Shown: positions 22,621-61,308 of the stretch, piece by piece
Numbering within the stretch: the first letter of the stretch is position 1
How the letters are laid out: every line of letters starts with the position of its first letter
Source: Magnetospira sp. QH-2
GTDB taxonomy: Bacteria; Pseudomonadota; Alphaproteobacteria; Rhodospirillales; Magnetospiraceae
NCBI RefSeq assembly: GCF_000968135.1
Contig: NZ_FO538765.1
Coordinates: 3,734,501 to 3,798,500, forward strand
Length of the DNA: 64,000 bases
Direction of reading: 5' to 3'
The notes under the pieces: model-generated
Database searches by the model: none
What the model saw: the letters and a program-made list of their open reading frames with translations, nothing else
Told to the model about the DNA's origin: nothing
Made by a program: the position numbers and the translations under genes

Positions 22621-22627
22621 TGCGCCC

Positions 22628-23398
22628 TCAGTATTGTCCGTAATAGGCATCGTCGCGCATCACCGCTTCCACCCGCCCCACGTCTTCGGGACTATCGACC
22701 GAAACATAGGGGCGATAGGGGATCGGGGCGATGCGCTGGCGAAAGCCGTTGTCGCAGATTCGATTGGAATCGCAGGCCTCCTTGATTTCCAAGGGGGATT
22801 CCGGTGTTTCGGTAAACCAGCGCAGGAATTGCCAGCGAAAGCCGAAAATGCCGCCAACCCGCAAGGCGCCCAGATCCTCTGAAAACCCGCCCTTGGCATA
22901 GGGAACGGGGCTGCGCGAGGTATAAAGGACATCGCCTTGGCGATCGTGAACGATCTTGACGATATCCGGATTGAGGAAGGTCTCTTCATCGCGGATGGGC
23001 ACCGCCAACATGGTCCCGGTAACCGACGGGTCTTCAGCGAAAGGTTTCAGCACCGCCTCAATCACATCGGGACCCAGCAAGGGCTCATCTCCTTGCACAC
23101 AAACGATAATATCGTCGTCAGATAGGTCCTGACCGCAGTTCTCAGCCGCCTCGGCGACCCGATCCAAGGCCCGGGTATGCGTATCGGCGGTCATAATCAC
23201 CGGGAAACCCTTGTCATCCCCGAAAGATCGGATTTCCTCGTCGCAGGTGGCCAGGAACAGGCCGTCCCAGCCGCCGAACAGGGCGGCGCGAGAAATACAA
23301 TGCTCAAGCATCGGTCGGCCGCAAATGGGATGCAAAGGCTTGCCCGGAAATCGACTGGCGGCCATTCGTGCCGGAACAATTCCAATGGTTTTCATCAT
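22628..23398 (-). CDS. KdsB-family cytidylyltransferase
   Basis: The 256-residue protein has the CTP-binding N-terminus GIVPARMAASRFPGKPL (residues 5-21) and VQGDEPLLGPDVI near 101-113, both characteristic of CMP-Kdo synthetases. The segment TADTHTRALDRVAEA replaces the usual Kdo-type TRADHxSGTxRxAEV, so the activated acid may not be Kdo. The product would be a CMP-linked acid made in the cytoplasm. It forms a leftward set with the O-methyltransferase and the 2-hydroxyacid dehydrogenase, and has a paralog at 55713-56462 with the same TADTH variation. ATG 23398 is followed by a second ATG. Confidence 0.85.
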   Translation of the reverse strand: MMKTIGIVPARMAASRFPGKPLHPICGRPMLEHCISRAALFGGWDGLFLATCDEEIRSFGDDKGFPVIMTADTHTRALDRVAEAAENCGQDLSDDDIIVCVQGDEPLLGPDVIEAVLKPFAEDPSVTGTMLAVPIRDEETFLNPDIVKIVHDRQGDVLYTSRSPVPYAKGGFSEDLGALRVGGIFGFRWQFLRWFTETPESPLEIKEACDSNRICDNGFRQRIAPIPYRPYVSVDSPEDVGRVEAVMRDDAYYGQY

Positions 23399-42452: not shown

Positions 42453-43223
42453 TCATAGCCAATCGCCCCCGGTCAACGGGATCATTTGCCCAGTGATGAA
42501 TGCGCTCCAACCAGACAGCAGATAGATCATCAGGGCCGCTGCTTCGCGGGGTTCCCCACCGCGCTTCAAGGGTACCAGCTCGGCTCGGTCGCTCATGTCC
42601 TTCTCGGACTTTTCGTGCCAGCGCTGGTGAAAACCGCTCTTGATGTAGCCGAAGCGAACGCCGTTGACCAGAATGTTGTGGGGCGCGCCCTCGCGGGCCA
42701 ATCCCTGAACCATGCATTCCGTTCCACGCTTTGCGACCGCGTAGGGAAAGGACTGGCCCGATCCGCCATGCAAAGCGGACTCGGTCCCATTGAGCAAGAT
42801 ACGACCGCCCGTACCCTGATCGGTCATATGCCGCATGGCGGCCCTGGCCAGATAGAATGGCTGGTTGAGGTTGACCGCCATGTCCTGTTCCCAGTCGTCT
42901 TCGGGCATGTCTTTCCAGTGGCCGGAGAAGTGAATGGCGCCGGACAGCGTGACCAAGGCATCGATGCCCCCCGCCTGCTCGACGAAGGCATCCACCACGG
43001 CCTCGCAATCGGCGGCACCGTTGAAGGATTGCCGAAGGGGAATTACCCGGGGATCGACAGAAGTCGGTGTCTTCGAGCCGCCATGGGCGCCGATCACGCA
43101 ATCGGATCCCTCCAAAAGCATGGTCACCAAGGCACGGCCCAGACCGCCGCTGGCGCCGGCCACCAGGACACGGGTTCCCGGGGTCAGTCGGGGAATCCAG
43201 TCGGGTTCCTCGAAACGGTTCAT
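42453..43223 (-). CDS. Classical short-chain dehydrogenase/reductase
   Basis: A 256-residue SDR has VLVAGASGGLGRAL near residues 19-32, Tyr/Lys in FPYAVAKRG near 155-163, and an upstream LLNGTES at the catalytic-Ser position where Thr/Ser is present. It ends with the FITGQMIPLTGGDWL tail common in FabG-like enzymes. ATG 43223 is fixed by an ATGA overlap with the TIM-barrel gene. Together with that isomerase it could interconvert keto and hydroxy forms of a sugar or cyclitol. The substrate is unknown. Confidence 0.85.
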   Translation of the reverse strand: MNRFEEPDWIPRLTPGTRVLVAGASGGLGRALVTMLLEGSDCVIGAHGGSKTPTSVDPRVIPLRQSFNGAADCEAVVDAFVEQAGGIDALVTLSGAIHFSGHWKDMPEDDWEQDMAVNLNQPFYLARAAMRHMTDQGTGGRILLNGTESALHGGSGQSFPYAVAKRGTECMVQGLAREGAPHNILVNGVRFGYIKSGFHQRWHEKSEKDMSDRAELVPLKRGGEPREAAALMIYLLSGWSAFITGQMIPLTGGDWL

Positions 43224-44029
43224 GAATAGCATTCCTTCAAATGGGTCACGCTTCGCGCCAGATCGCCCAAGGGATCCGTCTCGGACAACATGCGTTGCTC
43301 TATGGAGACCCATCCCGCGTAATCGATGTCTTTGAGCAGGGCCCCGATACGATCATGAGGCACCGCGCCACCCTCTCCCAGCACGCCCAAGCCCGGCTCG
43401 TTGGCATGAAAATGCACCAAATGAGGCGCGGCCAGGACAAAGGTTTCCTCGTCCACTTCGCCATTCTCCACCAAAGCCTTGGCGTCCAATTGGACTTTCA
43501 AGGCGGGATGATCGAGGGTCTCGACGATGCGCATCGAGTCCCGAACCGAATTGACGAAATCGGAATCCTTGGGGCCCAGGGGCTCGAAACAGAATTGAGT
43601 CCCGTGGCTTTCGATGCGGACACAGAGCTCGCCCATGAAAGCCACGGCTTCGTCAAAGGCGTCATCTTGCGGCATATCGCCGCGCCGCCGACCACCGCCC
43701 CAGATTAGCGTTTTACCGCCCAGATCGCGACAGACCGCCGACAGATGTGTAAAGAAATCCAGGGTTTGCCGACGGAGCTCCGGCCCCTTGAAAAGACCCA
43801 GATCTGGATGATCGAAGATCAAGGAATGCAGGCCGACGACAGAGAGGCCTGCCCCCTCTACCTGTCGCCGGTAGGCTTCGATTTGAGCCGACGTCAAACC
43901 CCGCCAGGTATCGCTCCAGACCCGGCTTGGCGCCACTTCGAGGCCTGCCACCCCCATCTCGGCCAGCCGCACCAGTTGGTTTCCATGATCTAATGCCGGT
44001 AGGCCGATATTGGAGACCGAAGCCCTCAT
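43220..44029 (-). CDS. TIM-barrel sugar phosphate isomerase/epimerase-like protein
   Basis: A 269-residue AP-endonuclease-2-type TIM barrel has the metal-binding residues expected for xylose-isomerase-like proteins: VVGLHSLIFD, CFEPLGP (Glu), QLDAKALVENGE (Asp/His site), HFHANEPG and SIEQRM (final Glu). The family includes inosose isomerases and dehydratases and ketose epimerases. It overlaps the ABC exporter upstream (ATGA 44026-44029) and the SDR downstream (ATGA 43220-43223), so all three are coupled. Nothing nearby identifies the substrate, though a keto-sugar or inosose is plausible. Confidence 0.82.
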   Translation of the reverse strand: MRASVSNIGLPALDHGNQLVRLAEMGVAGLEVAPSRVWSDTWRGLTSAQIEAYRRQVEGAGLSVVGLHSLIFDHPDLGLFKGPELRRQTLDFFTHLSAVCRDLGGKTLIWGGGRRRGDMPQDDAFDEAVAFMGELCVRIESHGTQFCFEPLGPKDSDFVNSVRDSMRIVETLDHPALKVQLDAKALVENGEVDEETFVLAAPHLVHFHANEPGLGVLGEGGAVPHDRIGALLKDIDYAGWVSIEQRMLSETDPLGDLARSVTHLKECYS

Positions 44030-48353: not shown

Positions 48354-50021
48354 TTACATCAGCGCTTCCATCTCATCGGCACTCAAGCGGCTCGGACTGA
48401 CCCTGAATTCATCCTTCGGATTTGTTCGACACCCTGTTCCACCGCCGCCGAAACTAGCCACGGTCCGCGCAAATTTCTCGTCCTGGTCCATGCCCAAAAA
48501 GTCTCGGGCGTAGATCTCACCGTAATGCTTGCGCAGTCTCGCGCCTTCATCGTCCATGGCCTCGGCGCGCCGAAGGTCACCCCATTCGTTTTCCGGGAAA
48601 TAGCAATACAGCGGGAACAAGGTCGTAAGGCTGGAAATCTCGTCTTGGCTCAGCATCGGCGCCGGCATCTCGAGCACGGACGCGGAATGACCTTGCGTGC
48701 AGATGAAATCCTTGTCCAGCCAGCCATTGCGGATCGCGACATCCCGTAGAGTGGTACCGTGATAAGGCGTGAAAATGCTCACAGTGAGGGCATCATACCC
48801 TTGAATCGAACGAACCAACTTAATGGAATCCATAACCAAGTCCCGCGTCTCCCCGGGAAGGCCAACCATGACATCCAAACTGAAGGCAATGCCACTTTCG
48901 AGAATAAGCCGGAAGCGACGGATGATTTCCTCGTTGGTAATCTTCCGCTTCAGAACTTTGTTCCGATATTCCTCGTTGCCGCATTCAACGCTGGAAGCCA
49001 TGCGGTAGCAGCCAACATCCTTCAATCTTTTGAGTGTGGGTACATCAAGGTTTTCGGCACGGGTATTGAACCAAAACGGAACTTTGAATTCTTCATACAT
49101 GTCACAGAATTCAAGGATCTCTTTGTGCGGTCGGGCTAAAAAGCTGTCATCCATGAAATAGAAGAAGGTGGGGTCAAAGCGGTCCACGTACTCCCGTAAT
49201 TCGTCTCGTAGGACGGGCAGAGATTTTCGACGAAGAAAGTTCCCCAATCCTTCGGACTTCGTGAAACTCCGTTGGGCCGGTGAATTGCAGAAGGTACAGG
49301 CATAAGGACACCCTCGGTAGCTTTCCACCGGAATCATTTTGAACATTTTGCCGCCCATGGGCCGGTAGAACCGGCGCGGATCAAAGAGGCCAAAATCCGG
49401 TCGCACGGCATCGAGATTCACCAAAGGCGGCTGATGGTTCCGATGAATGGTTCCGTCGCCGTCTTTGTACCAGATCCCTGCAATGTTCTCGAACGATGCT
49501 CCCGTGCGAACCGCCTCCGCTACGTCGAGAACAATCTGCTCCCCTTCTCCGCGTCCCACGGTTTTGACCTGTGGAAACGAAAGGGCACGGGCGGCATCAT
49601 TGGTTGGAAATACGCCCCCAATTAGATGCGGGATATTCAAATCCTCTACGGCCCCCAATAACTCGACGCATTGGGCAAAAGCATCTTCCACCACGGAGAA
49701 GATCATGAAATCAGGCTTGTACTCTTCGACTTTTTTTCGAAAGTCCCCGAGGAGATCCGTCTTCATGGTGATCCCAATTTCCTCGGTGATATTGAATGAG
49801 CGTGCCTGAAACAGCTCCATACGGCTTTCCGATGTCGATTTTTGATCGGACACATAATAGGTGGTTTCGAACAAATCGACGGCATACCCCTTGTCTCGGA
49901 GGATCCTTGTAAACAAAGCGATGGCGATCGAGGGTATGAGCATCAACGGAAGATTCGGATATACGATCAGAACCTTGAAATCTTCGACATTTTTAGGACT
50001 CATCTGGTTTACTACCGCCAT
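48354..50021 (-). CDS. Cobalamin-binding-type radical SAM protein, 555 residues
   Basis: The protein has an N-terminal cobalamin-binding-like domain (FKVLIVYPNLPLMLIPS; FMIFSVVEDA; LIGGVFPT...GRGEGE), the radical SAM motif RGCPYACTFC (Cys238, Cys242, Cys245), and a core with FYFMDDSFLARPH and a GLPGETRD loop, then a 130-residue C-terminal region ending in EMEALM. It differs clearly from the B12-type protein at 40896. It is 59 bp upstream of the aminotransferase gene and probably first in a three-gene unit ending at 46059. Substrate unknown; C-methylation or rearrangement is typical for the class. Confidence 0.88.
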   Translation of the reverse strand: MAVVNQMSPKNVEDFKVLIVYPNLPLMLIPSIAIALFTRILRDKGYAVDLFETTYYVSDQKSTSESRMELFQARSFNITEEIGITMKTDLLGDFRKKVEEYKPDFMIFSVVEDAFAQCVELLGAVEDLNIPHLIGGVFPTNDAARALSFPQVKTVGRGEGEQIVLDVAEAVRTGASFENIAGIWYKDGDGTIHRNHQPPLVNLDAVRPDFGLFDPRRFYRPMGGKMFKMIPVESYRGCPYACTFCNSPAQRSFTKSEGLGNFLRRKSLPVLRDELREYVDRFDPTFFYFMDDSFLARPHKEILEFCDMYEEFKVPFWFNTRAENLDVPTLKRLKDVGCYRMASSVECGNEEYRNKVLKRKITNEEIIRRFRLILESGIAFSLDVMVGLPGETRDLVMDSIKLVRSIQGYDALTVSIFTPYHGTTLRDVAIRNGWLDKDFICTQGHSASVLEMPAPMLSQDEISSLTTLFPLYCYFPENEWGDLRRAEAMDDEGARLRKHYGEIYARDFLGMDQDEKFARTVASFGGGGTGCRTNPKDEFRVSPSRLSADEMEALM

Positions 50022-51067: not shown

Positions 51068-52810
51068 TCACGATGACATCAGAAACGGTCTTTCTTTTTC
51101 GAGAGGCACCAGCCCCATATCACTGCGGACTATGTCAAACAGCACGCGACCAGATAGGTCCACCAGATCCCTATACGATTCAAGCGGATAAGGTTGCGAG
51201 CCATCTTCGATAGACTTGATTTTGGTGACCGCCATTCCAGGAGAATTCACACAGAGCCCCGGGAATTCCCGATGCAGACTGACCTTCTGATAGGGACATA
51301 GATCGGTCATGAATGAGAACAACCCAAACTGCATGGCCTCGACGACCACCGTCGAAGGATCTGAAAAAGCGTACCGCGCCTGGGTAAAAATATCGAACAA
51401 GCGATCCCGGGTATGTACCACGTTCGCCATACCGTCCTGGCACTGCCTGACAAAATCCTTGCCGACATCCGTGTCGACAAAGGTCCCTTTCACCTGCAGT
51501 AAGATTTTTCGGTCAATGAACGCTTCCGCCAGCCCTCTCACTAGTCGAATCATTTCCGGATTGTCAATGAAAGGAGCCACAAAAACCGCGATATCCTTGG
51601 GTTTTGGTTCATGGGCGCTTCGATAATCCTGCCGCGAGGCACCAAAGGTTCCAGAGGGTACGATCACCATATCCTTGGCCCAGGTCTGATGCGTATATCG
51701 ATCATATTGGGCCCGACCAAATACATAGAATCGATCAAAAGAAATGTACCGCCACATGGGATAAAAATTCGAGTAGTGCGAATATCCATGATTGATACCC
51801 AGCGCCGTTCCACCAACTCTGTGAAGTTCTTGCCGACGTAAAATATGTTCAACATTGTAGTCGTCCCGACTCCAATGATAGCTCGGATGAAACCGATTGA
51901 AAAATCCTCGCAAAACCGCTCGCCTGAAGGGAAGGGTCGCGATCTGATAGAATAGGGCGGGCGGCCGGTCATTAAAGCCCATCAACAGTTTGAGCCCGTC
52001 TCGAAAGATCATGCCTAGGGTTTTCAGGCCGCCAAGCAGGTCGAACAAGCCATCTTTGGGTTGGCACACATCATAGGAATTCAGTTCCTCATGGCCGCGC
52101 ACCGTCCATGAAGAGTGGCGCTCCGCCAATAGAACCGGTCCCCCTTCGGCTACCTCATGATAGAGCCTGAAATCCCTTCTATCCTCAATATAGTCAGCGC
52201 AAAGGAAATAGCTCTTGGGATCAACCTTGGCACGCAGGCGGCCTATCACCCACGCAGTGGAGATGCCTACAACGGCCACACCAATCAGGATATTCGTCAT
52301 TCGCCAAGGAAAGCGTTGGTGGCTCAGTGCGGACAGACAGTCTTCTCCGATGAAATCACCTGCGGCAGATCGGGTATCCTCGCTGAGGCCCGTTACGATA
52401 AACCCATCTTTGCCAAGTTTTTGATATAATGACTTTATTTTAAGAAGTATGAAATGCTTATCTTTAAAATAGTTACATGTTAACTGCTTATAACAGAACA
52501 TATACTCATTTATACTAGTATTTAACTTATCAAATTTGAAGTATTTGTTTTGCCATTTCTCAGTTTCCTCAAATACGTTGTGGAACAAAATTCTGGAATG
52601 ATAGTGAATAATTGGCACAAGTTCAGGGCACAGATCTATGATATCATGAACTTTTCCCGATTTAGTTAGATGCTTCACCACTCGTTCAAGAAATGGTCGT
52701 GTCCTTGGAAATAGTGGCTCAATACCGATCACATAGGGTTTCTTGCCGAATGCGGTACGGAGCAACAGGCCGGGCAGGCTCGCCTCGGAAACGGATATCG
52801 CGTGGATCAT
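51068..52810 (-). CDS. 580-residue protein with a GT-B-like C-terminal half
   Basis: The C-terminal part has FVAPFIDNPEMIRLVRGL, ILLQVKGTF, and SDPSTVVVEAMQFGLFSFMTDL followed by FPGLCVNS. It resembles the donor domain of capsule-type GT-B glycosyltransferases and the 28158 protein. The N-terminal half (to about residue 180) is unlike known domains, is AT-rich, and has a single hydrophobic helix near residues 172-190 (TNILIGVAVVGISTAWVIGR). Composition changes within the gene near 52300. Its start overlaps the GT2-dehydrogenase fusion (ATGA 52807-52810). The role is probably glycosyl transfer, with moderate certainty. Confidence 0.6.
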   Translation of the reverse strand: MIHAISVSEASLPGLLLRTAFGKKPYVIGIEPLFPRTRPFLERVVKHLTKSGKVHDIIDLCPELVPIIHYHSRILFHNVFEETEKWQNKYFKFDKLNTSINEYMFCYKQLTCNYFKDKHFILLKIKSLYQKLGKDGFIVTGLSEDTRSAAGDFIGEDCLSALSHQRFPWRMTNILIGVAVVGISTAWVIGRLRAKVDPKSYFLCADYIEDRRDFRLYHEVAEGGPVLLAERHSSWTVRGHEELNSYDVCQPKDGLFDLLGGLKTLGMIFRDGLKLLMGFNDRPPALFYQIATLPFRRAVLRGFFNRFHPSYHWSRDDYNVEHILRRQELHRVGGTALGINHGYSHYSNFYPMWRYISFDRFYVFGRAQYDRYTHQTWAKDMVIVPSGTFGASRQDYRSAHEPKPKDIAVFVAPFIDNPEMIRLVRGLAEAFIDRKILLQVKGTFVDTDVGKDFVRQCQDGMANVVHTRDRLFDIFTQARYAFSDPSTVVVEAMQFGLFSFMTDLCPYQKVSLHREFPGLCVNSPGMAVTKIKSIEDGSQPYPLESYRDLVDLSGRVLFDIVRSDMGLVPLEKERPFLMSS

Positions 52811-54735
52811 GACCGATCTTCCGAAGCCACATCAAGGATCACTTTCAAAACCTCGCCAGTCTGGCTGGTTTTCCAGGCTGCCTCGAAATCGGCCAAGGCC
52901 ATGGGGCACTTGAAATATTCATCCAGATCCAGATCTGGCAGCAGGGCGATGGCCGCCTCGAAATCCTCCGCCGTGCTGCCCACCGACCCGGTGACCGTCT
53001 TGTCATAGGCCGCCACGGCCTCGAAAGAAAAAGCTCTTTTGCCGTAGGGTAAGCCCAGCAGCAAGAGCGAACAATTAGCTGGACTGTCATGCAGGGCCCG
53101 GTCAAGAACTTCTGGATCACCGGTGATCTCGACGATGACCTGATAGTCGCGCAGACTCGACAGGTCCTCGGCGGTGGCGATGCCGGTCCCATCAAATAGG
53201 GCCCGGCGCTTGGGATTGCGGTCAAAGGCCGTGACCTTATGACCACGCCCGGCCAGGGCTTTGCTACATAGGTGTCCCAGCGGGCCCGATCCGATGACCG
53301 CGCAGTTTTTCGGGCCGTCATCAAGCACCGTGCTCAACCGCCGCAGTCCCTTATGCACCACCGCCAGGGGTTCGGTCAGCGCCGCCCGGCGCAGGTCCAT
53401 GCCGTCGGGTACCTTGTGCAGGAAACGGCTGGGCACCACCACGTAATCCCCATAGGCCCCATCCCGGCGCATGACGCCCAGTTCGGAACGGTCGGCGCAG
53501 CCGATGAAATTTCCGGCCCGACATTCATCGCAGGTACCGCAGCTCTGGATGCATTCGGCGACCACCGGTTCGCCCTCGGCAAAGTCCTCAACCGCCACGC
53601 CCACCGCCGCCACACGACCGGAAAACTCATGGCCCGGCACGATGGGGAAGTCAGCCATGCCATTGTGATAGAAGCCCAAGGTGCCGTCGCGGATTTCCAG
53701 GTCGGTGGCGCAGACCGCCACATGAGCCACCCGAATCAGCACGTCGCCCGGCTTCAGGTCTGGGATATCGACGACCTCAAGGGCCACCTTTCCCGGTCCC
53801 TTGACTTGGACCACCCGATTCATGCGATTGAACAAAGCCTGCTCTCTTTCTTCCTGGGTTTCCATGGGATGAGGTTCGATCAGTCCGCGAATGGTGCCCA
53901 GGGTCTTGCGGATGCGAAAGCGCAGGATCTCCGGCCAACGGGCTGCCAGCGGAAGCCGCTGGGCGGCGGGATTATCTTTCGGTGCCAGGGCCTGCAGGCA
54001 ATCGGCGATGGTCCGCCCGGATTCCTTGGCCAGGATCGCCGGAATATGGCGCCGCCCGATCACCGAACTGCGTCTGGCGGCCACGGCTTCGCGGTAATAG
54101 CGCCGTTGCACCTGCGGCCAGGTTTCCTCGTGGATATGGGACAGCACCGCCGAAGGCTCATAGAGTACTCGCCAGGAACGTTCCACCCAGTATTGCGCCA
54201 GGGCGATATCTTCCAGTCCCGGCAGGGCATCATCGAACGGCGTGATTTCCCACAACCGTCGGGGCATGGCCGAATTGGCATTATTAACGGCGAAACTGCC
54301 CTTTCGATCCTCGCGGGGGGTGGGGCCGAACACCCGCTCGAAATCCTCCGCCTCGGCGAACTTGGACGAGGCCACGCCCACCTGCCGCCCATAGACCATG
54401 GCCACGTCGTCGTTGTCGCGCAGGGGCCGAACCAGGTTTTCCAACCAATCGCCATCGACCGGCACCGTATGGGCCGAACACATGGCGATGAAACGTCCCG
54501 ATCCCGCCTCTATCCCCTTGTTCAGCGAATAGCCGAAGGTGAAGTCGTGGCTGGAGATACGGATCAGCTTGTGGACACCCCACTCCGTGGCAATATCGCG
54601 GGTCCGGTCATAGGACCCGGAATCCACCAGGATGACCTCGAAATCCCGGTAAGCCTGCCGATCCAGGGCGGCAAACAGCGCCGGAAGATGCTTTTCCTCG
54701 TTGAAGGTCCGGACGATGACACTGGTTTCGGGCAT
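52807..54735 (-). CDS. Fusion of GT2 glycosyltransferase and zinc-type medium-chain alcohol dehydrogenase
   Basis: One uninterrupted 642-residue frame joins a GT2 domain (residues 1 to about 290; SVIVRTFNEEKHL at 5-17, VDSGSYDRT near 37-45, GLEDIALAQYW near 173-183) to a complete MDR dehydrogenase (about 305-640). The latter has catalytic Cys342, GHE 368-370, a structural zinc site Cys399/402/405/413 and NAD motif IGSGPLGHL near 481-489. In the GT2 the usual DxD position reads CSAHTVP. ATG 54735 is chosen since homology begins there. A single frame with no stop or slippery site at the linker (METQEEREQ) suggests a real fusion. It may oxidise or reduce a sugar or hydroxyacid group that it then transfers. 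Confidence 0.88.
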   Translation of the reverse strand: MPETSVIVRTFNEEKHLPALFAALDRQAYRDFEVILVDSGSYDRTRDIATEWGVHKLIRISSHDFTFGYSLNKGIEAGSGRFIAMCSAHTVPVDGDWLENLVRPLRDNDDVAMVYGRQVGVASSKFAEAEDFERVFGPTPREDRKGSFAVNNANSAMPRRLWEITPFDDALPGLEDIALAQYWVERSWRVLYEPSAVLSHIHEETWPQVQRRYYREAVAARRSSVIGRRHIPAILAKESGRTIADCLQALAPKDNPAAQRLPLAARWPEILRFRIRKTLGTIRGLIEPHPMETQEEREQALFNRMNRVVQVKGPGKVALEVVDIPDLKPGDVLIRVAHVAVCATDLEIRDGTLGFYHNGMADFPIVPGHEFSGRVAAVGVAVEDFAEGEPVVAECIQSCGTCDECRAGNFIGCADRSELGVMRRDGAYGDYVVVPSRFLHKVPDGMDLRRAALTEPLAVVHKGLRRLSTVLDDGPKNCAVIGSGPLGHLCSKALAGRGHKVTAFDRNPKRRALFDGTGIATAEDLSSLRDYQVIVEITGDPEVLDRALHDSPANCSLLLLGLPYGKRAFSFEAVAAYDKTVTGSVGSTAEDFEAAIALLPDLDLDEYFKCPMALADFEAAWKTSQTGEVLKVILDVASEDRS

Positions 54736-54748
54736 GGATCGGATAATC

Positions 54749-55693
54749 TCAGAGGCCGCCTGCCTTAAGGCCTTCAAGCAACTGGCTCAACGTACTGTCA
54801 TGAATGCGGTTCCAGGCCTTGGGGCTGGAATTGCTGTTGTGCGGGGCAAGCATCACGTTGTCCATGCCGCGCAAGGGGCTGTCGGCGGGCAGTGGCTCGT
54901 CCTCGAACACGTCCAATGCCGCTCCGGCGATCTGGCCGTCCTGTAAGGCCTTGACCAAGGCTTTCTCGTCGACCACCGGACCGCGGCCCAAGTTGGTCAT
55001 GACCGCTGTCGGCTTCATTTTCTCGAACTGATGGGTGCTCATCAGGTGATACGAGGTATCGGTCAGGTCCGCATGCACGCAGACAAAGTCGGAACGCTCC
55101 AAAAGCTCGTCCAACGCCACCATCTCCACGCCCAGGGCCTTCACATGGCCCGGATGCAAGACCCGAATATCATTGCCGAGAATCTCGGCGCCACAGGCCT
55201 TGGCCCGGCGCAGGGTGGCCGACCCGGTGGCACCGACGCCCACCACGCCGACGGTGCATTCGTTGAGCGCCCGACCGGGGATCTTGTCCCAAATGCCGGC
55301 CTTCATCTGTTGATCCATCCAAGGCAGACGGCGGGCGAAACACAGAATGTAGCCCAAGGCTGAATCCCCCACCGGTTCGGTAAAGGCGTCCAGGGTGCGG
55401 CAGACCCGGATGCCGCGCTTGTTGGCCTCCTCCTTGTCGATGGAATCGATGCCGGTGCCCCATTTGGAAATGACCTTCAGCTTCGGTGCCGCGTCCAGTA
55501 CCTTGGGCGTCACCCGGTCGTCGCCGCAGATCAACCCATCGTAATCGCCAATGATGGGGATCAGGTCTTCCTCTTCCATGCGCTCTTGAACATCCGCCTT
55601 GACATATTCCATGTCATTTTCGGCAAAAAAGTCGGCAAAATCATCGACGATGGGCAGCATGTAGGGGGCGGTGACGAGAACCTTCCAAGTCAT
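54749..55693 (-). CDS. D-isomer-specific 2-hydroxyacid dehydrogenase (second pair)
   Basis: A 314-residue protein has the NAD motif TVGVVGVGATGSATLRRA near 140-157 and the family triad: Arg in NLGRGPVVDE, Glu in LDVFEDEP, His in APHNSN. It has no ACT domain. It is distinct in sequence from the dehydrogenase at 20729 but shares its partnership with a KdsB-family cytidylyltransferase (here at 55713, 19 bp upstream). The GT2-dehydrogenase fusion starts 13 bp after its end. A role in making or reducing a 2-keto acid destined for CMP activation is inferred, not shown. Confidence 0.85.
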   Translation of the reverse strand: MTWKVLVTAPYMLPIVDDFADFFAENDMEYVKADVQERMEEEDLIPIIGDYDGLICGDDRVTPKVLDAAPKLKVISKWGTGIDSIDKEEANKRGIRVCRTLDAFTEPVGDSALGYILCFARRLPWMDQQMKAGIWDKIPGRALNECTVGVVGVGATGSATLRRAKACGAEILGNDIRVLHPGHVKALGVEMVALDELLERSDFVCVHADLTDTSYHLMSTHQFEKMKPTAVMTNLGRGPVVDEKALVKALQDGQIAGAALDVFEDEPLPADSPLRGMDNVMLAPHNSNSSPKAWNRIHDSTLSQLLEGLKAGGL

Positions 55694-55712: not shown

Positions 55713-56462
55713 TCAGTAGGTGCCGAACAGCGGGTCGGTGGTCATCATTTCGGTCACCAAACGCAGATCCTCCGGCGTATCGACGGCGTGGGTTTCCAGG
55801 TCGGTCTCGACCATGCGAACGCCGATGCCGTGCTCGATGAAGCGCATCATATCGACGGATTCGGCAATTTCCAGCGGTGTTGGGGGCAACTGGTAGAAAT
55901 TCATCAAAGCAGCATGACGGAACGGGATGATGCAGACCTGTTTATAGGCGGCGATGTCTTCGAACCGGCCCTTCAAACGGTGCGGAATGGCCTCCCGGGA
56001 CATGAACAGGGCATTCATGTTGCCATCCATGACCACCTTGATGGTGGCCGGGTTTTCAAACTCTTCCACCGTCGGAATGCGTTTGGTCAGGTTGACGCAT
56101 TGCAGCGCCGGGTCCTCGGCGAAGGGGGCCACCGCGGTGTCGATCATTTCGGGGAAGGTCAGGGGTTCGTCGCCTTGCACCATGACCACCAGATCCACAT
56201 CCTTGTCGGCCATGGCTTCGGCCACCCGGTCGCTGGCCCGTTCATGAGTATCGGCGGTCATGATCACCGGCGCCCCGAAGGCTTCCGAGGCGGACCGGAT
56301 CTCATCGTCACAGGTAGCGATATAGACCTCGGACACCGCCTCGCTGAGCGCCGTGCGCTGATACACATGCTCGAGCATCGGGCGGCCGTGCAACGGTGCC
56401 AGCGGTTTACCGGGAAAACGCGACGAGCCCATGCGGGCCGGGATAACGGCAACGGTCTTCAT
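55713..56462 (-). CDS. KdsB-family cytidylyltransferase (second copy)
   Basis: A 249-residue protein has VAVIPARMGSSRFPGKPL (residues 4-21), VMVQGDEPLTFPEMI near 93-107 and TADTHERASDRVAEA near 69-83. It shares the TADTH...DRVAEA variation with the copy at 22628 and ends similarly (DPLFGTY versus DDAYYGQY), so the two are paralogs outside the standard Kdo-type sequence. It probably activates an acidic sugar or similar acid with CTP. It is followed by the 2-hydroxyacid dehydrogenase and preceded by 190 bp that contain a short copy of the dispersed repeat. Confidence 0.87.
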   Translation of the reverse strand: MKTVAVIPARMGSSRFPGKPLAPLHGRPMLEHVYQRTALSEAVSEVYIATCDDEIRSASEAFGAPVIMTADTHERASDRVAEAMADKDVDLVVMVQGDEPLTFPEMIDTAVAPFAEDPALQCVNLTKRIPTVEEFENPATIKVVMDGNMNALFMSREAIPHRLKGRFEDIAAYKQVCIIPFRHAALMNFYQLPPTPLEIAESVDMMRFIEHGIGVRMVETDLETHAVDTPEDLRLVTEMMTTDPLFGTY

Positions 56463-56652: not shown

Positions 56653-57369
56653 TCAAGAGGGTTGTCCATCGGCGAGAATCTGCGGCAGCATGGCCACGGC
56701 GACGGCAAAATCCAATGCTGTATCCAGGTCCAAGGAACGCTCCCGAGGCATCAAATAGCCAAGGGTTTGGGGACCGAAGAACGTCTGGTTTGTTTCGAAC
56801 CACTGGCGGTCCGCCACGTAGACGGCCCCGTTGGGCAGCACCGCTTCCAACGCCTCGTGTCGAGGTACCTGATCCCCCACCTGGGCCCACCTAAGCCGTT
56901 GCAGTAAGTCATTTGCGTGATCGTGATGGTACATCCATGCCAGCGGCTTTTCCGATCGCACGACAGACACGCAAACCGGTTCACTTCCTTTATGGCATTT
57001 GCTTAAACAGGCTTCCATGTCGGCACCGGTCCGAAATGGCGACGTGGGTTGCAGCAACATTAAGTAGTCGTAGGTTTGCTCAAGGACGGAAAGAGCGTGC
57101 ATGACCACGTCCTCGCTGCTAGCCGTGTCCGACGACAACGCCTCGGGACGCACAAACGGCACTTCGCACCCCCATGCTTTCGCGGTTTCTATAATTTCCG
57201 GATCATCCGAGGACAGGATCACCCGATCAATGGAAGGCGCGCTCCGTGCCGCTTCGATAGTCCAGGCAATCAGGGGCTTGCCGCCCAGGTCGAGGACATT
57301 CTTACGCGGCAACCGCTTGGAACCCCCGCGTGCCGTGATCAGCGCCAGCACGGATTTGCCGTCAATCAT
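56653..57369 (-). CDS. Acylneuraminate-type cytidylyltransferase (NeuA/PseF-like)
   Basis: A 238-residue protein has LALITARGGSKRLPRKN (residues 8-24), the CMP-nonulosonate synthetase signature, SSDDPEI near 54-60 and LLQPTSPFRT near 104-113. Family members activate Neu5Ac, legionaminic or pseudaminic acid as CMP sugars. ATG 57369 overlaps the hisH-like gene by 8 nt; upstream frame to 57465 is coding only for hisH in another frame. No NeuB-type synthase is in the window. Coupling to the HisH/HisF/amidotransferase cassette suggests the activated sugar carries or receives an acetamidino group. Confidence 0.88.
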   Translation of the reverse strand: MIDGKSVLALITARGGSKRLPRKNVLDLGGKPLIAWTIEAARSAPSIDRVILSSDDPEIIETAKAWGCEVPFVRPEALSSDTASSEDVVMHALSVLEQTYDYLMLLQPTSPFRTGADMEACLSKCHKGSEPVCVSVVRSEKPLAWMYHHDHANDLLQRLRWAQVGDQVPRHEALEAVLPNGAVYVADRQWFETNQTFFGPQTLGYLMPRERSLDLDTALDFAVAVAMLPQILADGQPS

Positions 57370-58003
57370 CGACCAGAAATCTCCGCAGCAAAGACAATCC
57401 CTCGGGCCCGCTTTTTTCTGGATGAAATTGAGTTCCAACCACATTGTCCCGACGCACGGCGGCACTCAGTCGGGCACCCTCGTACTCCACGTCCGCCAGC
57501 CGGTGTTCGTCAATTTTCGGATAGCCGACGAATGAGTGGACAAAATACAGGGCGGTGCCTTCGGTCAGGCCGGCGAGCACACTACCCTGCCAACGATCAG
57601 GGGAAGGTTTTTGCAAGGCGGCCCATCCGATATGCGGGATTTTGCGGCGGGATCCGTCTTCTTTTTCATGCGGAATCGGCACCACCTGCCCGGGAATCAG
57701 GGCCAAGCCGTCATGGTGGCCGAACTCCAGACTGCTTTCGAAAAGCAGTTGCATGCCGAGACAGATGCCAAGAAACGGGCGACCAGTTGCCGCATAGGCC
57801 CGCAACGGCGCCACCAAGTCGCGGTCACCCAATCGATTCATGGCGGTTGCAAAGGCGCCGACACCGGGTAGCACCAAACGCTCCGCCCGGGCGATATCTT
57901 CGGCGTCACGGGCTATGTTGACCGACGCGCCGCAATGCTCGAAAGCCTGGGCTACGCTCAGCAAATTGCCACAGTCGTAGTCAACAACGGTCACGGAACT
58001 CAT
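57362..58003 (-). CDS. HisH-like glutamine amidotransferase subunit of an acetamidino-sugar cassette
   Basis: A 213-residue class I glutaminase has nucleophile Cys81 in GICLGMQLLFE and the catalytic pair His194/Glu196 in TQFHPEKSG. It would supply ammonia through the HisF-like partner to the ATP-PPase amidotransferase (58775), as in the WbpG/HisH2/HisF2 system of Pseudomonas. Overlaps with hisF (ATGA 58000-58003) and the downstream cytidylyltransferase (8 nt) make a compact cassette. A histidine-pathway role is unlikely: no other his genes are near and the partner HisF has diverged. Confidence 0.9.
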   Translation of the reverse strand: MSSVTVVDYDCGNLLSVAQAFEHCGASVNIARDAEDIARAERLVLPGVGAFATAMNRLGDRDLVAPLRAYAATGRPFLGICLGMQLLFESSLEFGHHDGLALIPGQVVPIPHEKEDGSRRKIPHIGWAALQKPSPDRWQGSVLAGLTEGTALYFVHSFVGYPKIDEHRLADVEYEGARLSAAVRRDNVVGTQFHPEKSGPEGLSLLRRFLVDD

Positions 58004-58764
58004 GGCAGCCGCCTTACCGGTAAACCGGAATCAAGTGCGTGGTCACGGATCTGGCCAATGGTGAGTTTGTCATAGTGCAGGACATGGGCCATGGCCACCG
58101 CGTCGGGCCGAGCTTCCGAGACTACTTGATCCAAGTGGTCAACGCCTCCCAGGCCGCCACTGGCGATGACCGGAATATCCACTACATTGGTTACCGCCTT
58201 GATCAATTCCACGTCGAACCCTTGGGCGGTGCCCTCCTGGTCCACTGATGTCAGCAGGATTTCACCGGCTCCCAGGGCCTGACCGCGTTGTACCCAATCC
58301 ACAACATTCAGTCCCGTGCGCTCCCGGCCATTGTCCGCATAAGCCTCCCACCAGCCTTCTTTTTGCCGCTGTGCCTCAATGGACAATACCACGCATTGGC
58401 TGCCGAAATGCTCGGCGATTTCTGTTAGGAGTTCCGGTCGCTGGGTGGCTGCCGTGTTGATGGCCAACTTGTCTGCCCCCATGCGCAGCAGATGGTGAGC
58501 ATCCTCTACCGACCGGATTCCACCTCCAACGGTAATCGGAATAAACACGTCCGATGCGGTATGAGCGACGATTTCGGACAGGTTGTTACGACCGTAGAGG
58601 CTGGCCACCGTATCCATATAGATGATTTCATCGACTCCCTGGCCATAGTAGCGCCGGGCAAAGGTCTGCGGATCACCGATCTTACGCAGTCCTTCCAACC
58701 GGACTCCTTTTATCAGGTTGGAGCCCTTGATATCCAAGCGGGCAATGAGACGCAGATTTCTCAT
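58000..58764 (-). CDS. HisF-like cyclase/ammonia-channel subunit of an acetamidino-sugar cassette
   Basis: A 254-residue (beta-alpha)8 protein starts RLIARLDIKGSNLIKGV and has GGGIRSVEDAHHLL and GEILLTSVDQEGTAQG. The first catalytic Asp (Asp11) is present, but the position of the second canonical Asp (Asp130) holds Glu (VLSIEAQR). The LDIKGxNLIKG form and SLYGRNN are typical of HisF paralogs next to N-acetyl sugar amidotransferases rather than of histidine synthesis. ATG 58764 has GGAG 6 nt upstream and starts 10 nt after the amidotransferase. It probably channels ammonia from HisH. Confidence 0.9.
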   Translation of the reverse strand: MRNLRLIARLDIKGSNLIKGVRLEGLRKIGDPQTFARRYYGQGVDEIIYMDTVASLYGRNNLSEIVAHTASDVFIPITVGGGIRSVEDAHHLLRMGADKLAINTAATQRPELLTEIAEHFGSQCVVLSIEAQRQKEGWWEAYADNGRERTGLNVVDWVQRGQALGAGEILLTSVDQEGTAQGFDVELIKAVTNVVDIPVIASGGLGGVDHLDQVVSEARPDAVAMAHVLHYDKLTIGQIRDHALDSGLPVRRLP

Positions 58765-58774
58765 GGCTCGCTCC

Positions 58775-60058
58775 CTATTCCTCCCATACCACGTGCCGCC
58801 GGGTCCAGGCACCATTCTGGTACTGCCAAAGATGCGGTGAGCGGAATTTATCTGCCAGATCCATGAATGAATCCCGAGTCATAACCGGCGACTGGAAATG
58901 CTCCGCGATGTCACCGAATTGCTGTTCTGGCAGACTCAGGTACTCGAAAATCTCTTCTGCAAAACGCTCGGGAAATTCGCCATCAAAGCGGCGCACCAAC
59001 GCCATCCCTTCCTCTCGGTCGATCTCGTCATTTCGAATTTCCTGCGAGGCGTCGTAAGTGGCCCGCCCGATACCGAACTTGATAAAGGTTGTGTAGTAGT
59101 GGAAATCATCAATCTTATCGTCGATGCTGTTGTACTTGCTGTAGGTCCCTGCGGTCCGCTCCGGCGAAGCCTCGAAACCGCCGTGCTCATGGGCATAATA
59201 GTAAGCCCCCTGGGGATGCCATCTCAAATAGTAACCCAGGTAGTGAACCTCAGTGCCGACACGGAGCAAATCTTCCGGGTTGGCGGGTAGATAGGCCTCC
59301 AGGTCATTGGGATGAACACCGAAATCTTCTTTCAACTCTTGCACGGACGTTCCACCGATATAGACCTGTGACTTGTCCTCCATGGAAAAGTAGCGCCATT
59401 CCCGCACGGCCTTTTCGTTGTCCTCGATGGGATTGCCGTACTCGGCCTCGTTGTCGCCATAAAAGACCAAGGGGATATTGTAGAGGACCGACATCTTGGG
59501 CGCCAAAGCCTTTTGGCCAATGATGAAAGGCTGGAAAGGATGGAACAGCCTTTCGACTGCGAGCCTTGTCAGCAAGCGATGTATGCGACCATTTGGTGTG
59601 ATCAGGTTGTTGTCAAAACCGGCATGGATCCAGCGTTGAAAGTTGCGCCACCCCCAGTCGGTATACACATGTGGCGCCCAGGTGATGGTCAGCGGGTGCA
59701 TGCCGTATTTGTACTTGAGAACATGCGCCTGGTAGAAACTATCTTTGCCACCCGACCCCGGGATCAGACAGTCATACCCACCATCATTTCTGCGGTACCG
59801 ATCACAAAGCTCCCGCAACTGCCGCTCTCGATCATCCCAATCGATTTCATTTTTTTGTTTGGTAGAACGGCAAGCGTCGCAAACCCCGTCATCGTCGAAA
59901 TTGATGGTCTGTTTCTTACTCTCTTTGACGTGCTCGTATTCAACAGCCGAATTCGGTCGTTGATTGGAGATCACACAGCTCTTGCAGAACGTCACTTCCG
60001 CGGGCAAGCCGTAAAGTGGCGAGCCTGGATCAATCTCATTGGGGGCGTTGTTCACCAT
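58775..60058 (-). CDS. N-acetyl sugar amidotransferase (WbpG/PseA/LegA-type ATP-PPase)
   Basis: A 427-residue protein has a zinc site Cys25, Cys28, Cys60, Cys63 (FCKSCVIS and VCDACRS) and the PP-loop GSGGKDSFY at 101-109. The family converts an N-acetyl group of a sugar into an acetamidino group using ammonia from a HisH/HisF-like pair, as encoded just downstream. The acceptor could be a nonulosonic acid or a diacetamido-uronic acid. Its first 12 codons and upstream region lie in a 434-bp segment repeated at 60875-61308. Confidence 0.92.
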   Translation of the reverse strand: MVNNAPNEIDPGSPLYGLPAEVTFCKSCVISNQRPNSAVEYEHVKESKKQTINFDDDGVCDACRSTKQKNEIDWDDRERQLRELCDRYRRNDGGYDCLIPGSGGKDSFYQAHVLKYKYGMHPLTITWAPHVYTDWGWRNFQRWIHAGFDNNLITPNGRIHRLLTRLAVERLFHPFQPFIIGQKALAPKMSVLYNIPLVFYGDNEAEYGNPIEDNEKAVREWRYFSMEDKSQVYIGGTSVQELKEDFGVHPNDLEAYLPANPEDLLRVGTEVHYLGYYLRWHPQGAYYYAHEHGGFEASPERTAGTYSKYNSIDDKIDDFHYYTTFIKFGIGRATYDASQEIRNDEIDREEGMALVRRFDGEFPERFAEEIFEYLSLPEQQFGDIAEHFQSPVMTRDSFMDLADKFRSPHLWQYQNGAWTRRHVVWEE

Positions 60059-60229
60059 TTTGCTATCTCTTTATTTGTCAGATGACGGGTTAAGGACCGC
60101 GTCAGACAGGACCGGTCGAAAAATCTCACGCTAGAGCTCTGTCGGATGGGACGCATCTTTCTGATTCAAACCACTAGCGCATGTCGGGTCCAATCGGCCC
60201 CATTGGACAGGCGCGACCCTATTGGAATC

Positions 60230-60277
60230 GATCACGTTTTTCATGTTTGATCGAATCCAATCAAACACGACGTGATC
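60230..60277. repeat. 48-bp imperfect inverted repeat upstream of the amidotransferase
   Basis: Arms GATCACGT and ACGTGATC lie at the ends, with inner TTTGAT/ATCAAA, and would form a hairpin or bind a dimeric regulator. It is repeated 853 bp away (61083-61130). A smaller palindrome GTCCAAT/ATTGGAC lies next to it at 60187-60207. Confidence 0.6.
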
Positions 60278-60278
60278 T

Positions 60279-60448
60279 AGAGCATTATCCAACCAACCTG
60301 GAACCCTGTGACCAAGGAATTTTCCGTCCCGGACAGGAGGGCTTTGAAGAGCGGGTGGGCTACGGTCGAGAAGCCCGAGCCCTCCGGGGTGTAACATGCC
60401 CGGCCCCTGGGGACCATCACAGAGGCGGGTTGGTCGGATACTGCTCTA
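60279..60448. repeat. MITE-like segment with imperfect terminal inverted repeats
   Basis: AGAGCATTATCCAACCAACC at the left end is matched, with several mismatches, by the complement of the right end (GGGTTGGTCGGATACTGCTCT). The 170-bp segment has no coding capacity. The right end abuts the transposase fragment in copy 1 and the 253-residue gene in copy 2 (61132-61301), the behaviour of an inserted element. Confidence 0.5.
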
Positions 60449-60874: not shown

Positions 60875-60911
60875 AGCCTGGATCAATCTCATTGGGGGCG
60901 TTGTTCACCAT
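60873..60911 (-). pseudogene. Duplicated first 12 codons of the amidotransferase gene
   Basis: Copy 2 of the direct repeat carries ATG 60911 and the same 12 codons (MVNNAPNEIDPG) as the amidotransferase at 60058. The junction with the transposase fragment then creates a TAA (60875-60873). A 12-residue peptide could be made from the duplicated promoter but is unlikely to be functional. Confidence 0.75.
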
Positions 60912-61308
60912 TTTGCTATCTCTTTATTTGTCAGAAGACGGGTTAAGGACCGTGTCAGACAGGACCGGTCGAAAAATCTCACGCTAGAGCTCTGTCGGAT
61001 GGGAAGCATCTTTATGATTCAAACCACTAGCGCATGTCGGGTCCAATCGGCCCCATTGGACAGGCGCGACCCTATTGGAATCGATCACGTTTTTCATGTT
61101 TGATCGAATCCAATCAAACACGACGTGATCTAGAGCATTATCCAACCAACCTGGAACCCTGTGACCAAGGAATTTTCCGTCCCGGACAGGAGGGCTTTGA
61201 AGAGCGGGTGGGCTACGGTCGAGAAGCCCGAGCCCTCCGGGGTGTAACATGCCCGGCCCCTGGGGACCATCACAGAGGCGGGTTGGTCGGATACTGCTCT
61301 AATACGAG
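60875..61308. repeat. 434-bp direct repeat, copy 2
   Basis: It is nearly identical to 60022-60455. At its right end it supplies the last two codons and the stop of the orphan gene at 61299-62060; at its left end it abuts the transposase fragment. Both copies point the same way, so recombination between them would delete the IS fragment. Confidence 0.92.

Follow-up and report, generated by a model that had tools for sequence, protein, structure and literature searches.

Kdo and the sialic, legionaminic and pseudaminic acids are, to our knowledge, all made by PEP-dependent aldol condensation, and they are transferred by dedicated families of CMP-sugar glycosyltransferases (GTs). Oxidative aldose pathways, which comprise an aldose dehydrogenase, a gluconolactonase and a 2-ketoaldonate reductase, are catabolic. 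The DxD metal/nucleotide motif is usual in GT2 enzymes without being universal, and we know of no GT2 that uses a CMP-linked donor. We analysed a 64,000-nucleotide stretch of the Magnetospira sp. QH-2 genome (the window), in which one gene joins a GT2 domain to a zinc-dependent MDR alcohol dehydrogenase (ADH) domain, next to genes for a D-2-hydroxyacid dehydrogenase (2HADH) and a KdsB-like cytidylyltransferase (Table 1). The same fusion recurs in distant bacteria, as a rule with these two partner genes alongside, and this suggests an undescribed pathway by which acidic sugars are made and attached to surface polysaccharides. We propose, at a probability of roughly 0.4 for the mechanism as a whole, that this module produces a CMP-activated sugar acid through oxidation instead of aldol condensation, and transfers it.

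Table 1. Features of the fusion locus, in window coordinates
Feature	Position	Strand	Description	Evidence
GT2-MDR fusion gene	52807..54735	-	642 aa, stop codon included	Translation, Pfam, matches in own and other genomes
GT2 domain, GT-A fold	53869..54735	-	Residues 1 to ~289	PF00535, AlphaFold2, fold matches
S87-A88-H89 at the DxD position	54469..54477	-		S87 and H89 invariant in 30/30 relatives
Interdomain linker	53827..53868	-	Residues 290-303, in frame	Low pLDDT at 290-296 and 298-303
Zinc-dependent MDR alcohol dehydrogenase domain	52822..53826	-	Residues ~304-638	PF08240, PF16912, MDR fold, invariant ligands
580-aa protein	51068..52810	-	Overlaps the fusion stop by 4 bp	No Pfam or NCBIfam match
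D-2-hydroxyacid dehydrogenase (2HADH)	54749..55693	-	Partner	PF02826/PF00389
KdsB-like cytidylyltransferase	55713..56462	-	Partner, altered sugar-side signature	PF02348, PRK13368
PseF-like cytidylyltransferase	56653..57378	-	Third CTP transferase of the window	PF02348; 143.9 bits to the PseF model (cut-off 205.7)
HisH/HisF(WbuZ)/WbuX-like sugar amidation genes	57362..60058	-	Upstream, same strand	NCBIfam

The fusion gene starts with an ATG at 54735, 13 bp past the stop codon of the upstream gene, and its minus-strand frame is open and unbroken over the whole length. The original prediction had assigned a GT2 and an MDR dehydrogenase to this single frame, naming no strand, and had seen no frameshift in the linker; both statements hold, as the linker residues read in frame and the gene is intact in the Magnetospira sp. 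QH-2 assembly (99.97% complete). The intact gene in this genome and the 24 other loci described below rule out an artefact or a frameshift as the origin of the fusion, and both halves are apparently functional. Neither of the two outcomes named in the original prediction as refuting it, a frameshift at the linker or the lack of any other genome with the fusion, came about. The GT half matches Glycos_transf_2 (PF00535) at residues 5-127 (73.3 bits, cut-off 23.3) and, modelled alone by AlphaFold2, reaches a mean pLDDT of 95.7. The GT-A fold is supported by a match to 2z86_D (Z 22.6, rmsd 2.4, 206 aligned), and the closest solved folds are glycosyltransferases with Z about 22. The DxD motif is absent, and SAH stands in its place within CSAHTVP (residues 86-92), as had been predicted. 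The motif had also been called unusual, and this part does not stand, because SxH is invariant throughout a GT2 subfamily that also occurs unfused; the conservation of S and H in all 30 aligned fused and unfused relatives rules out SAH as a peculiarity of the fusion protein.

The ADH half matches ADH_N (PF08240) at residues 328-444 (96.5 bits) and Glu_dehyd_C (PF16912) at residues 451-634 (36.5 bits, cut-off 34.9), falls slightly short of the cut-off for ADH_zinc_N (31.3 vs 31.8), and has a complete MDR fold (Z 39.1 against 4ej6, over 324 aligned residues). Its best matches among MDR models, inosose 3-dehydrogenase and threonine dehydrogenase, score far under the cut-offs, which counts against the proposed mechanism. 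A complete dehydrogenase with all zinc and NAD motifs had been predicted, and the residues, whose roles we assign from general knowledge, bear this out: the window protein has the predicted catalytic zinc ligands C342, H369/E370 and E455, all four presumed structural-zinc cysteines (399, 402, 405 and 413), and the NAD(P) motif G482-x-G484-x-x-G487 with the beta-2 acidic residue D505. Residues C342, H369, E370 and E455 are present in 24/24 aligned fused copies, as are the NAD(P) motif and D505. The structural-zinc cysteines are present in 20 to 21 of the 24 rows per position; three copies (L066, L068 and L073) are missing this lobe, and there is one further change at position 399. The dN/dS values of the ADH half among five same-genus copies are 0.15-0.28, indicating purifying selection, and together with the invariant catalytic residues they rule out a degenerate ADH half.

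The original prediction had called for a search for the same domain order in other genomes, and this search found 24 loci besides the window (25 in total): 13 in the order, 2 in Rhodospirillaceae, and 9 in MAGs whose labels span about seven further phyla or candidate phyla. Within the order, the window's genome and 13 others of 317 carry a near-full-length fusion, and these 13 copies show 54-63% identity to that of the window; a scan of named genomes gave 11 further fused loci. Cultured environmental carriers include Paramagnetospirillum marisnigri SP-1 (L059). A search of 385 genomes of the class at E <= 1e-60 gave matches in three apart from that of the window, and these covered the GT half only. 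A peptide-pattern search of viral contigs found no fusion, and nowhere in plasmid and phage records was at least 80% of the fusion covered. One distant copy, in a Bdellovibrionales MAG (L062), has a single in-frame stop within its ADH half; it is counted among the 25 loci and was excluded from alignment A2, the trees and the ADH residue counts. The trees are consistent with a fusion that arose once and then spread together with its neighbours. Two genomes of the same order (G018 and G019) keep the module with a GT2 that has no ADH half, which counts against the proposed mechanism; we read this as loss of the ADH half by deletion, because the C-terminal residues of these proteins resemble its start. 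Another locus (L050) stops at a contig edge and is uninformative on the ADH half. The literature matches listed, taken by title and abstract opening, include neither a fusion of a GT2 with an alcohol dehydrogenase nor such a module.

The fusion very probably belongs to a module with the cytidylyltransferase and the 2HADH. As predicted, it adjoins the second such pair in the window; the first consists of a cytidylyltransferase (22631-23398) and a 2-hydroxyacid dehydrogenase (20732-21688), with one gene without a Pfam family between them. The linkage also extends to the other loci: a KdsB-like cytidylyltransferase lies within about 8.5 kb in 21/25 fused loci, and a 2HADH is present in 20/25. One fusion (L069) has neither partner within about 8 kb, which counts against the mechanism. 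Near unfused SxH-GT2 genes, a cytidylyltransferase is found at 16/19 loci compared to 3/40 control GT2 loci (raw locus counts), and a 2HADH at 9/19 compared to 2/40, a contrast inflated by the control loci that lie outside polysaccharide islands. In L075 the cytidylyltransferase and the SxH GT2 are naturally fused in one 570-aa frame, and L076 is identical. Homologues of the 580-aa protein adjoin the fusion in several fused loci. Among the amidation genes upstream, HisH and WbuX score above the NCBIfam cut-offs and WbuZ slightly below.

The SxH GT2 could instead take an ordinary NDP-sugar, with the cytidylyltransferase and 2HADH serving another residue and the neighbourhood reflecting co-transfer of polysaccharide islands. 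We consider this rather unlikely, given the enrichment of the cytidylyltransferase over the controls, inflated as that contrast is, the tight operons across phyla and the direct fusion of cytidylyltransferase and GT2. In its favour, cytidylyltransferases are common in polysaccharide islands, three of the 19 unfused SxH loci (L091, L095 and L096) have no cytidylyltransferase, and three more (L098, L099 and L102) have no other than an ordinary KdsB-type gene at a distance of some 3-5 kb. The GT fold also matches NDP-sugar enzymes: in the structure matches listed for the GT half, the sugar nucleotides named are all UDP-, GDP- or (d)TDP-linked, which counts against the CMP-sugar mechanism, although these matches do not distinguish the donor and leave room for families outside them. 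A separate PseF-type gene, present in 8/25 fused loci including the window, likewise counts against the mechanism, as it makes the supplier of the GT2 ambiguous.

The KdsB-like partner resembles the CMP-Kdo synthetases KdsB/KpsU in passing two broader KdsB subfamily models (PRK13368 among them), in its best solved match (1gq9, E-value 5.3e-49), and in keeping the CTP/Mg motifs PAR..SSR.PGK, QGDEP and VDTPEDL. Unlike them, it fails the KdsB equivalog models (TIGR00466, 134.7 vs 155.2 bits; PRK05450.1-1, 156.9 vs 281) and differs at the sugar-side positions, where five KdsB comparison rows share (H/R)H(I/V)GxYxY and LEQLR while the window protein has KQVCIIPF and SVDMMR. The motif ES(I/V)D is found in 16/16 partner rows, and Q replaces the second H in 15/16 (L065 keeps H); the divergent rows L039 and L041 have KHTAIIAF and EGIDYNR. 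The KdsB-like genes of L042, L044, L045, L048, L054 and L064 stand outside this alignment. The altered signature, as aligned, would disfavour CMP-Kdo as the activated sugar. PMC3149649, in the text available, treats the Mg-binding aspartates and the Kdo-binding domain of KdsB, and not the signature residues compared here. The KdsB-like gene is divergent (36-37% identity) in five Magnetospirillum-group loci, which counts against the mechanism. A second KdsB-like gene of the genome lies at C1:105564. The 2HADH has its predicted catalytic R/E/H residues in 25/25 aligned module members, and its many matches include a solved probable 2-ketogluconate reductase.

In the oxidative mechanism that we propose, the ADH domain, or an SDR in unfused relatives, would convert an aldose to a lactone, a lactonase-like hydrolase would convert the lactone to an aldonate, and the 2HADH would oxidise C2 to give a 2-keto-aldonate (2-ulosonic acid). 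That the direction of catalysis is not readable from sequence counts against this scheme. The KdsB-like enzyme would turn the 2-keto-aldonate into a CMP-sugar, and the SxH GT2 domain would transfer this CMP-sugar acid to a growing surface polysaccharide. The fusion would hold together the first and last enzymes of the pathway. The gene neighbourhood suggests that the ADH domain acts several steps ahead of activation, with the 2HADH and cytidylyltransferase in between. An aldose-dehydrogenase-like SDR is found in 9/19 unfused SxH-GT2 loci, and an SMP-30 gluconolactonase-like gene in 4/19 unfused and 0/25 fused loci, a scarcity that counts against the mechanism. Two unfused compact operons contain the whole set: GT2, CTP transferase, 2HADH, SDR and SMP-30 gluconolactonase in L105, and SMP-30, GT2, CTP transferase, 2HADH and SDR in L103. 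In five SDRs scanned, glucose or xylose 1-dehydrogenase models rank best or second, with every score under cut-off and the 'glucose 1-dehydrogenase' model covering a broad SDR subfamily. A PF04199 metal hydrolase is present in 9/25 fused, 0/19 unfused and 1/40 control loci, in favour of the mechanism; relatives of this family are better known as formamidases, which counts against it, as does the lack of SDR, SMP-30, MBL or PF04199 matches among models within 8.5 kb of the fusion in the window. An SDR of another kind lies ~9.5 kb downstream of the fusion (42453-43313), and the genome has a PF04199 homologue at C1:942147. The window contains no NeuB-type aldolase; the two PF03102 genes of the genome lie elsewhere and may still serve the module.

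The original prediction had a bifunctional enzyme oxidise or reduce a sugar and then transfer it; in such a model the dehydrogenase domain would act directly on the nucleotide-activated or just-transferred sugar, with the GT domain handling the same molecule. That exactly a GT and a dehydrogenase are joined, both intact and under selection, would fit this model, but it is unlikely: an early oxidation step fits better because some unfused operons with GT2, CTP transferase and 2HADH carry a separate SDR and lactonase-like gene, and two genomes are without the ADH half. It is quite improbable that the two dehydrogenases make, in place of an ulosonic acid, a small substituent, either a hydroxy acid resembling glycerate or lactate or a polyol such as the alditols of CDP-polyol pathways. 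In favour of this, the 2HADH resembles phosphoglycerate dehydrogenase and glyoxylate reductase more than 2-ketogluconate reductase, and MDRs act on polyols; against it, some operons carry aldose-dehydrogenase-like SDRs and gluconolactonase-like genes, and KdsB, according to PMC3149649, activates its 2-keto sugar acid, in cyclic form, at the C2 hydroxyl.

The oxidative reading, if true, would provide a second route to activated ulosonic acids, make CMP-donor use predictable for a GT2 subfamily from one motif, and supply a rule by which many unassigned genes in surface-polysaccharide clusters of environmental bacteria could be interpreted; the fusion, with its separable halves, is a direct handle on the pathway. 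With more reserve, we suggest that an undescribed, aldolase-free oxidative pathway from aldose to CMP-2-ulosonic acid might be paired with SxH GT2s as the first CMP-donor GT2 group, in which SxH (perhaps HxH) would replace the NDP-handling DxD, occurring in many phyla; one lineage would have the sugar-oxidising step joined to the transferase, another the activating enzyme.

Compared to known GT2 (PF00535) enzymes of the GT-A fold, the GT half is close to K4CP, PcManGT and WrtF, and E175-D176, a family likeness, is invariant in its relatives; it differs in the invariant SxH in place of DxD, an invariant HxH at 200-202, the added C-terminal MDR domain and the cytidylyltransferase partner. The ADH half shares its fold, catalytic zinc and NAD residues with zinc MDR dehydrogenases (the sorbitol, threonine and glucose dehydrogenase group; PF08240), and is set apart by its position behind a GT2 and by the copies without the structural-zinc lobe. 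The module as a whole recalls the oxidative aldose pathway, as related SDR, SMP-30 and 2HADH genes co-occur in some unfused operons, but unlike in that pathway, they accompany a cytidylyltransferase and a GT2 in polysaccharide islands.

The GT2 and the zinc-dependent MDR dehydrogenase (ADH) are joined in one uninterrupted frame, as the original prediction had proposed. The ATG of the fusion gene lies 13 bp past the stop of the upstream gene, and its stop codon is overlapped by the start of the downstream gene (52807-52810). Pfam assigns Glycos_transf_2 to residues 5-127, ADH_N to 328-444 and Glu_dehyd_C to 451-634. The full-length AlphaFold2 model from a 27-row alignment has a mean pLDDT of 89.4, and segments of at least three residues fall below 50 only at the linker (290-296 and 298-303) and the last four residues; because pTM is 0.69, the relative placement of the two halves is uncertain. 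The ADH half matches 4ej6 with a Z of 39.1 across 324 aligned residues. The GT half modelled alone (pLDDT 95.7) shows a GT-A fold, and K4CP, PcManGT, WrtF and others match it at Z of about 22.

Coordinates of the fusion genes and of other elements
Feature	Location	Strand	Remarks
GT2-MDR fusion gene	52807-54735	minus	single unbroken reading frame, 642 aa
Cytidylyltransferase-SxH GT2 fusion	L075:7182-8891	plus	one frame, 570 aa; Wolfebacteria MAG
Cytidylyltransferase-SxH GT2 fusion	L076:4046-5758		protein identical to that of L075; MAG binned as Flavobacteriaceae
First cytidylyltransferase/2HADH pair	20732-23398	minus
321-aa protein	21688-22650	minus	no Pfam family; between members of first pair
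580-aa protein	51068-52810	minus	overlaps fusion stop
Radical SAM gene	48354-50021	minus
Radical SAM gene	40896-42341	minus	B12-binding domain above cut-off only in this one
SDR, different from those of the operons	42453-43313
Direct repeat, 300 bp, 99% identical	60022-60321 and 60875-61174		extends into WbuX-like gene start
PF04199 homologue, own genome	C1:942147

The same domain order recurs in 24 fused loci besides the window, giving 25 distinct loci. The own genome carries one intact copy. A near full-length fusion is present in 14 of 317 Rhodospirillales genomes, the own included, with the 13 others at 54-63% identity, and 14 further genomes match one half only (E <= 1e-30). A scan of a one-genome-per-species collection, a lower bound since it used two short GT peptide patterns only, returned 30 loci, 20 of which span both halves; nine of these are contigs already known and 11 are new. 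The new loci include two from Rhodospirillaceae (L054 and L064), and the others are MAGs labelled Lindowbacteria, Bdellovibrionales, Chloroflexi, Nitrospirota, Kaiserbacteria, Acidobacteria, Patescibacteria, Cyanobacteria and one unnamed bacterium, labels that may reflect misbinning.

In an alignment of 27 rows, 24 of them fused (L062 was excluded owing to an in-frame stop), S87, H89, E175, D176, H200 and H202 are invariant in 27/27 rows. The predicted retention of the MDR zinc and NAD motifs also holds, as C342, H369, E370, E455, G482, G484, G487 and D505, which include the catalytic zinc ligands, are invariant in all 24 fused rows. The structural-zinc cysteines are kept in 20 to 21 of the 24; in L066, L068 and L073, which group together in the GT tree, the whole structural-zinc lobe is absent and the catalytic zinc ligands are kept. 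Among five copies from one genus (g65), dN/dS is 0.15-0.28 for the ADH half and 0.22-0.40 for the GT half; by this measure both halves are maintained by selection in that genus. The SAH in place of DxD had been regarded as unusual for the fusion protein, but S(A/G/S)H occupies this position in all 14 unfused GT2 rows first inspected (including the near-copies L075/L076 and L028/L034), and a wider alignment keeps S87 and H89 in 30/30 rows, so SAH is, judged from the alignments, a trait of the GT2 subfamily. A metal site in the GT half is possible given the invariant H200-x-H202.

In a quick, unrooted GT tree of 46 rows, all 24 fused rows cluster with the three GT-only rows (SH-aLRT 92), and the 19 unfused rows lie opposite them. 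The GT-only rows L048 and L049 nest inside the fused group, consistent with loss of the ADH half, and the third, L050, is cut by the end of its contig. A fully supported branch separates the fused ADH halves from ten other MDRs that were search hits from the own genome and order, several of them on very long branches. A single fusion event is the simplest reading of these quick, unrooted searches.

Gene content within 8.5 kb was compared with small purpose-built HMMs across three sets: 25 loci with the fusion, 19 with an unfused SxH GT2 (of 21 fetched, the near-copies L076 and L106 were left out) and 40 with a control GT2. The controls were hand-picked for contig room among the PF00535 hits in 40 order genomes; several share contigs (L129/L130 overlap), some of their GT2s lie outside polysaccharide islands, and one of the 40 centres (L147) contains an SxH-like string by pattern match. 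A cytidylyltransferase of any type was found in 21/25 fused, 16/19 unfused and 3/40 control loci, and a D-2-hydroxyacid dehydrogenase (2HADH) in 20/25, 9/19 and 2/40, by HMMs derived partly from set members and biased toward detecting them. An earlier tblastn count of unfused versus control loci gave 16/21 versus 3/40 and 9/21 versus 2/40, respectively (Fisher 7e-8, which overstates certainty because related loci are not independent). Fused loci with no cytidylyltransferase are L008, L038, L068 (contig ends nearby) and L069, where its absence within about 8 kb is genuine; unfused L091, L095 and L096 also have none within 8.5 kb by the HMMs, which likewise found no 2HADH near fused L036, L038, L061, L066 and L069. 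The module pattern is present in several phyla. Islands with the module also carry Polysacc_synt, Wzy_C, other GTs and methyltransferases, and a surface glycan would fit as its destination.

The fusion had been described as adjoining the second of two cytidylyltransferase/2HADH pairs, and the first pair is indeed present in the window; relatives of the first pair occur in other order genomes (2HADH of L109, 68%; cytidylyltransferase of L114, 71%). The 580-aa protein recurs adjoining the fusion in related clusters, gives no Pfam, NCBIfam or convincing PDB match, and is perhaps a further transferase. The two radical SAM genes share about 24% identity within the same polysaccharide island, and that at 48354-50021 recurs adjoining the fusion in several clusters. 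Frames between the 300-bp repeats resemble an IS5-type transposase remnant, a name taken from reading the translation.

The window's KdsB-like partner exceeds two KdsB subfamily cut-offs (PRK13368, 300.7 versus 255, and PRK05450.1-5), fails the KdsB equivalog models, and retains the CTP and Mg motifs. Five KdsB comparison rows carry LEQLR and (H/R)H(I/V)G, whereas module partners carry ES(I/V)D (16/16 rows examined) and a KQ-type change (15/16; H is kept in L065); among the comparison rows Thalassovita alone is annotated as KdsB and adjoins kdsA, and the other four were assigned by similarity, three being close kin. Two divergent Magnetospirillum-group partner rows have EGIDYNR and KH. The KdsB-like gene of L039, L041, L042, L044 and L045 is divergent (36-37% identity to the window's), an additional PseF-type gene occurs in 8/25 fused loci, the window included, and 11/19 unfused loci instead match the NeuA/PseF-like model of plasmid operons. 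In three closely related unfused loci (L098, L099 and L102) the sole cytidylyltransferase is of ordinary KdsB type, some 3-5 kb off.

Plasmid operons of Gemmobacter, Thalassovita and Sulfitobacter begin this series with the GT2, then an acylneuraminate-type cytidylyltransferase and then a PGDH-like or NAD(P)-dependent oxidoreductase, with no ADH. In L105 (genome G539), GT2, cytidylyltransferase, 2HADH, SDR and SMP-30 are five consecutive genes; in L103 (G642), SMP-30 overlaps the GT2 start and is followed by cytidylyltransferase, 2HADH and SDR. A metallo-beta-lactamase-fold (MBL) gene precedes GT2, cytidylyltransferase, 2HADH and SDR in L077 (top NCBIfam match L-ascorbate 6-phosphate lactonase, far under cut-off), and its relative in L074 sits between GT2 and cytidylyltransferase. 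In L104 the GT2, cytidylyltransferase and 2HADH are accompanied by neither an SDR nor a lactonase-like gene. The Thalassovita SDR best matches D-xylose 1-dehydrogenase (280.4 bits versus a cut-off of 400); glucose 1-dehydrogenase, a model of a broad SDR subfamily, is the top match for the SDRs of L105, L103 and L077 and second-best for that of L075, in each case below cut-off.

Within 8.5 kb, an SDR occurs in 9/19 unfused, 4/25 fused and 4/40 control loci, SMP-30 in 4/19, 0/25 and 0/40, MBL in 2/19, 1/25 and 1/40, and a PF04199 hydrolase in 0/19, 9/25 (L037, L039, L041, L043, L044, L045, L046, L062 and L073) and 1/40. The HMMs found no SMP-30, MBL or PF04199 hydrolase within 8.5 kb in the window. 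SDR occurs with SMP-30 in some unfused loci and MDR with PF04199 in some fused ones, a pattern suggesting that the SDR was replaced at its step by the fused ADH. A lactonase role for the PF04199 hydrolase would be a guess, because the relatives with solved structures comprise kynurenine formamidases, metal-dependent hydrolases and isatin hydrolase.

The cytidylyltransferase-GT2 protein of L075, with 2HADH and SDR downstream, gives the module a second, independent kind of fusion, and this is the strongest argument that GT2 and cytidylyltransferase share a pathway. The fusion, its conservation, the selection on it, its single grouping and its module membership are established. A sugar-acid route can be proposed in which the steps would run from aldose through lactone, aldonate and 2-keto-aldonate to a CMP-sugar acid. 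Both dehydrogenases would then act in the oxidative direction, the module product would be a 2-ulosonic acid, and a CMP-sugar would be the donor for the SxH GT2. Four observations count against this route: some KdsB-like genes are divergent, PseF-type genes are also present, three loci have an ordinary KdsB instead, and an SDR lies downstream in the window.

A full-text literature search, in which subscription literature was thinly covered, gave no account of the GT2-ADH architecture or the module among the matches listed. The constituent domain families are each already known; the reading of a CMP donor supplied by an oxidative route, if proven, would be a larger advance than a variant of known families.
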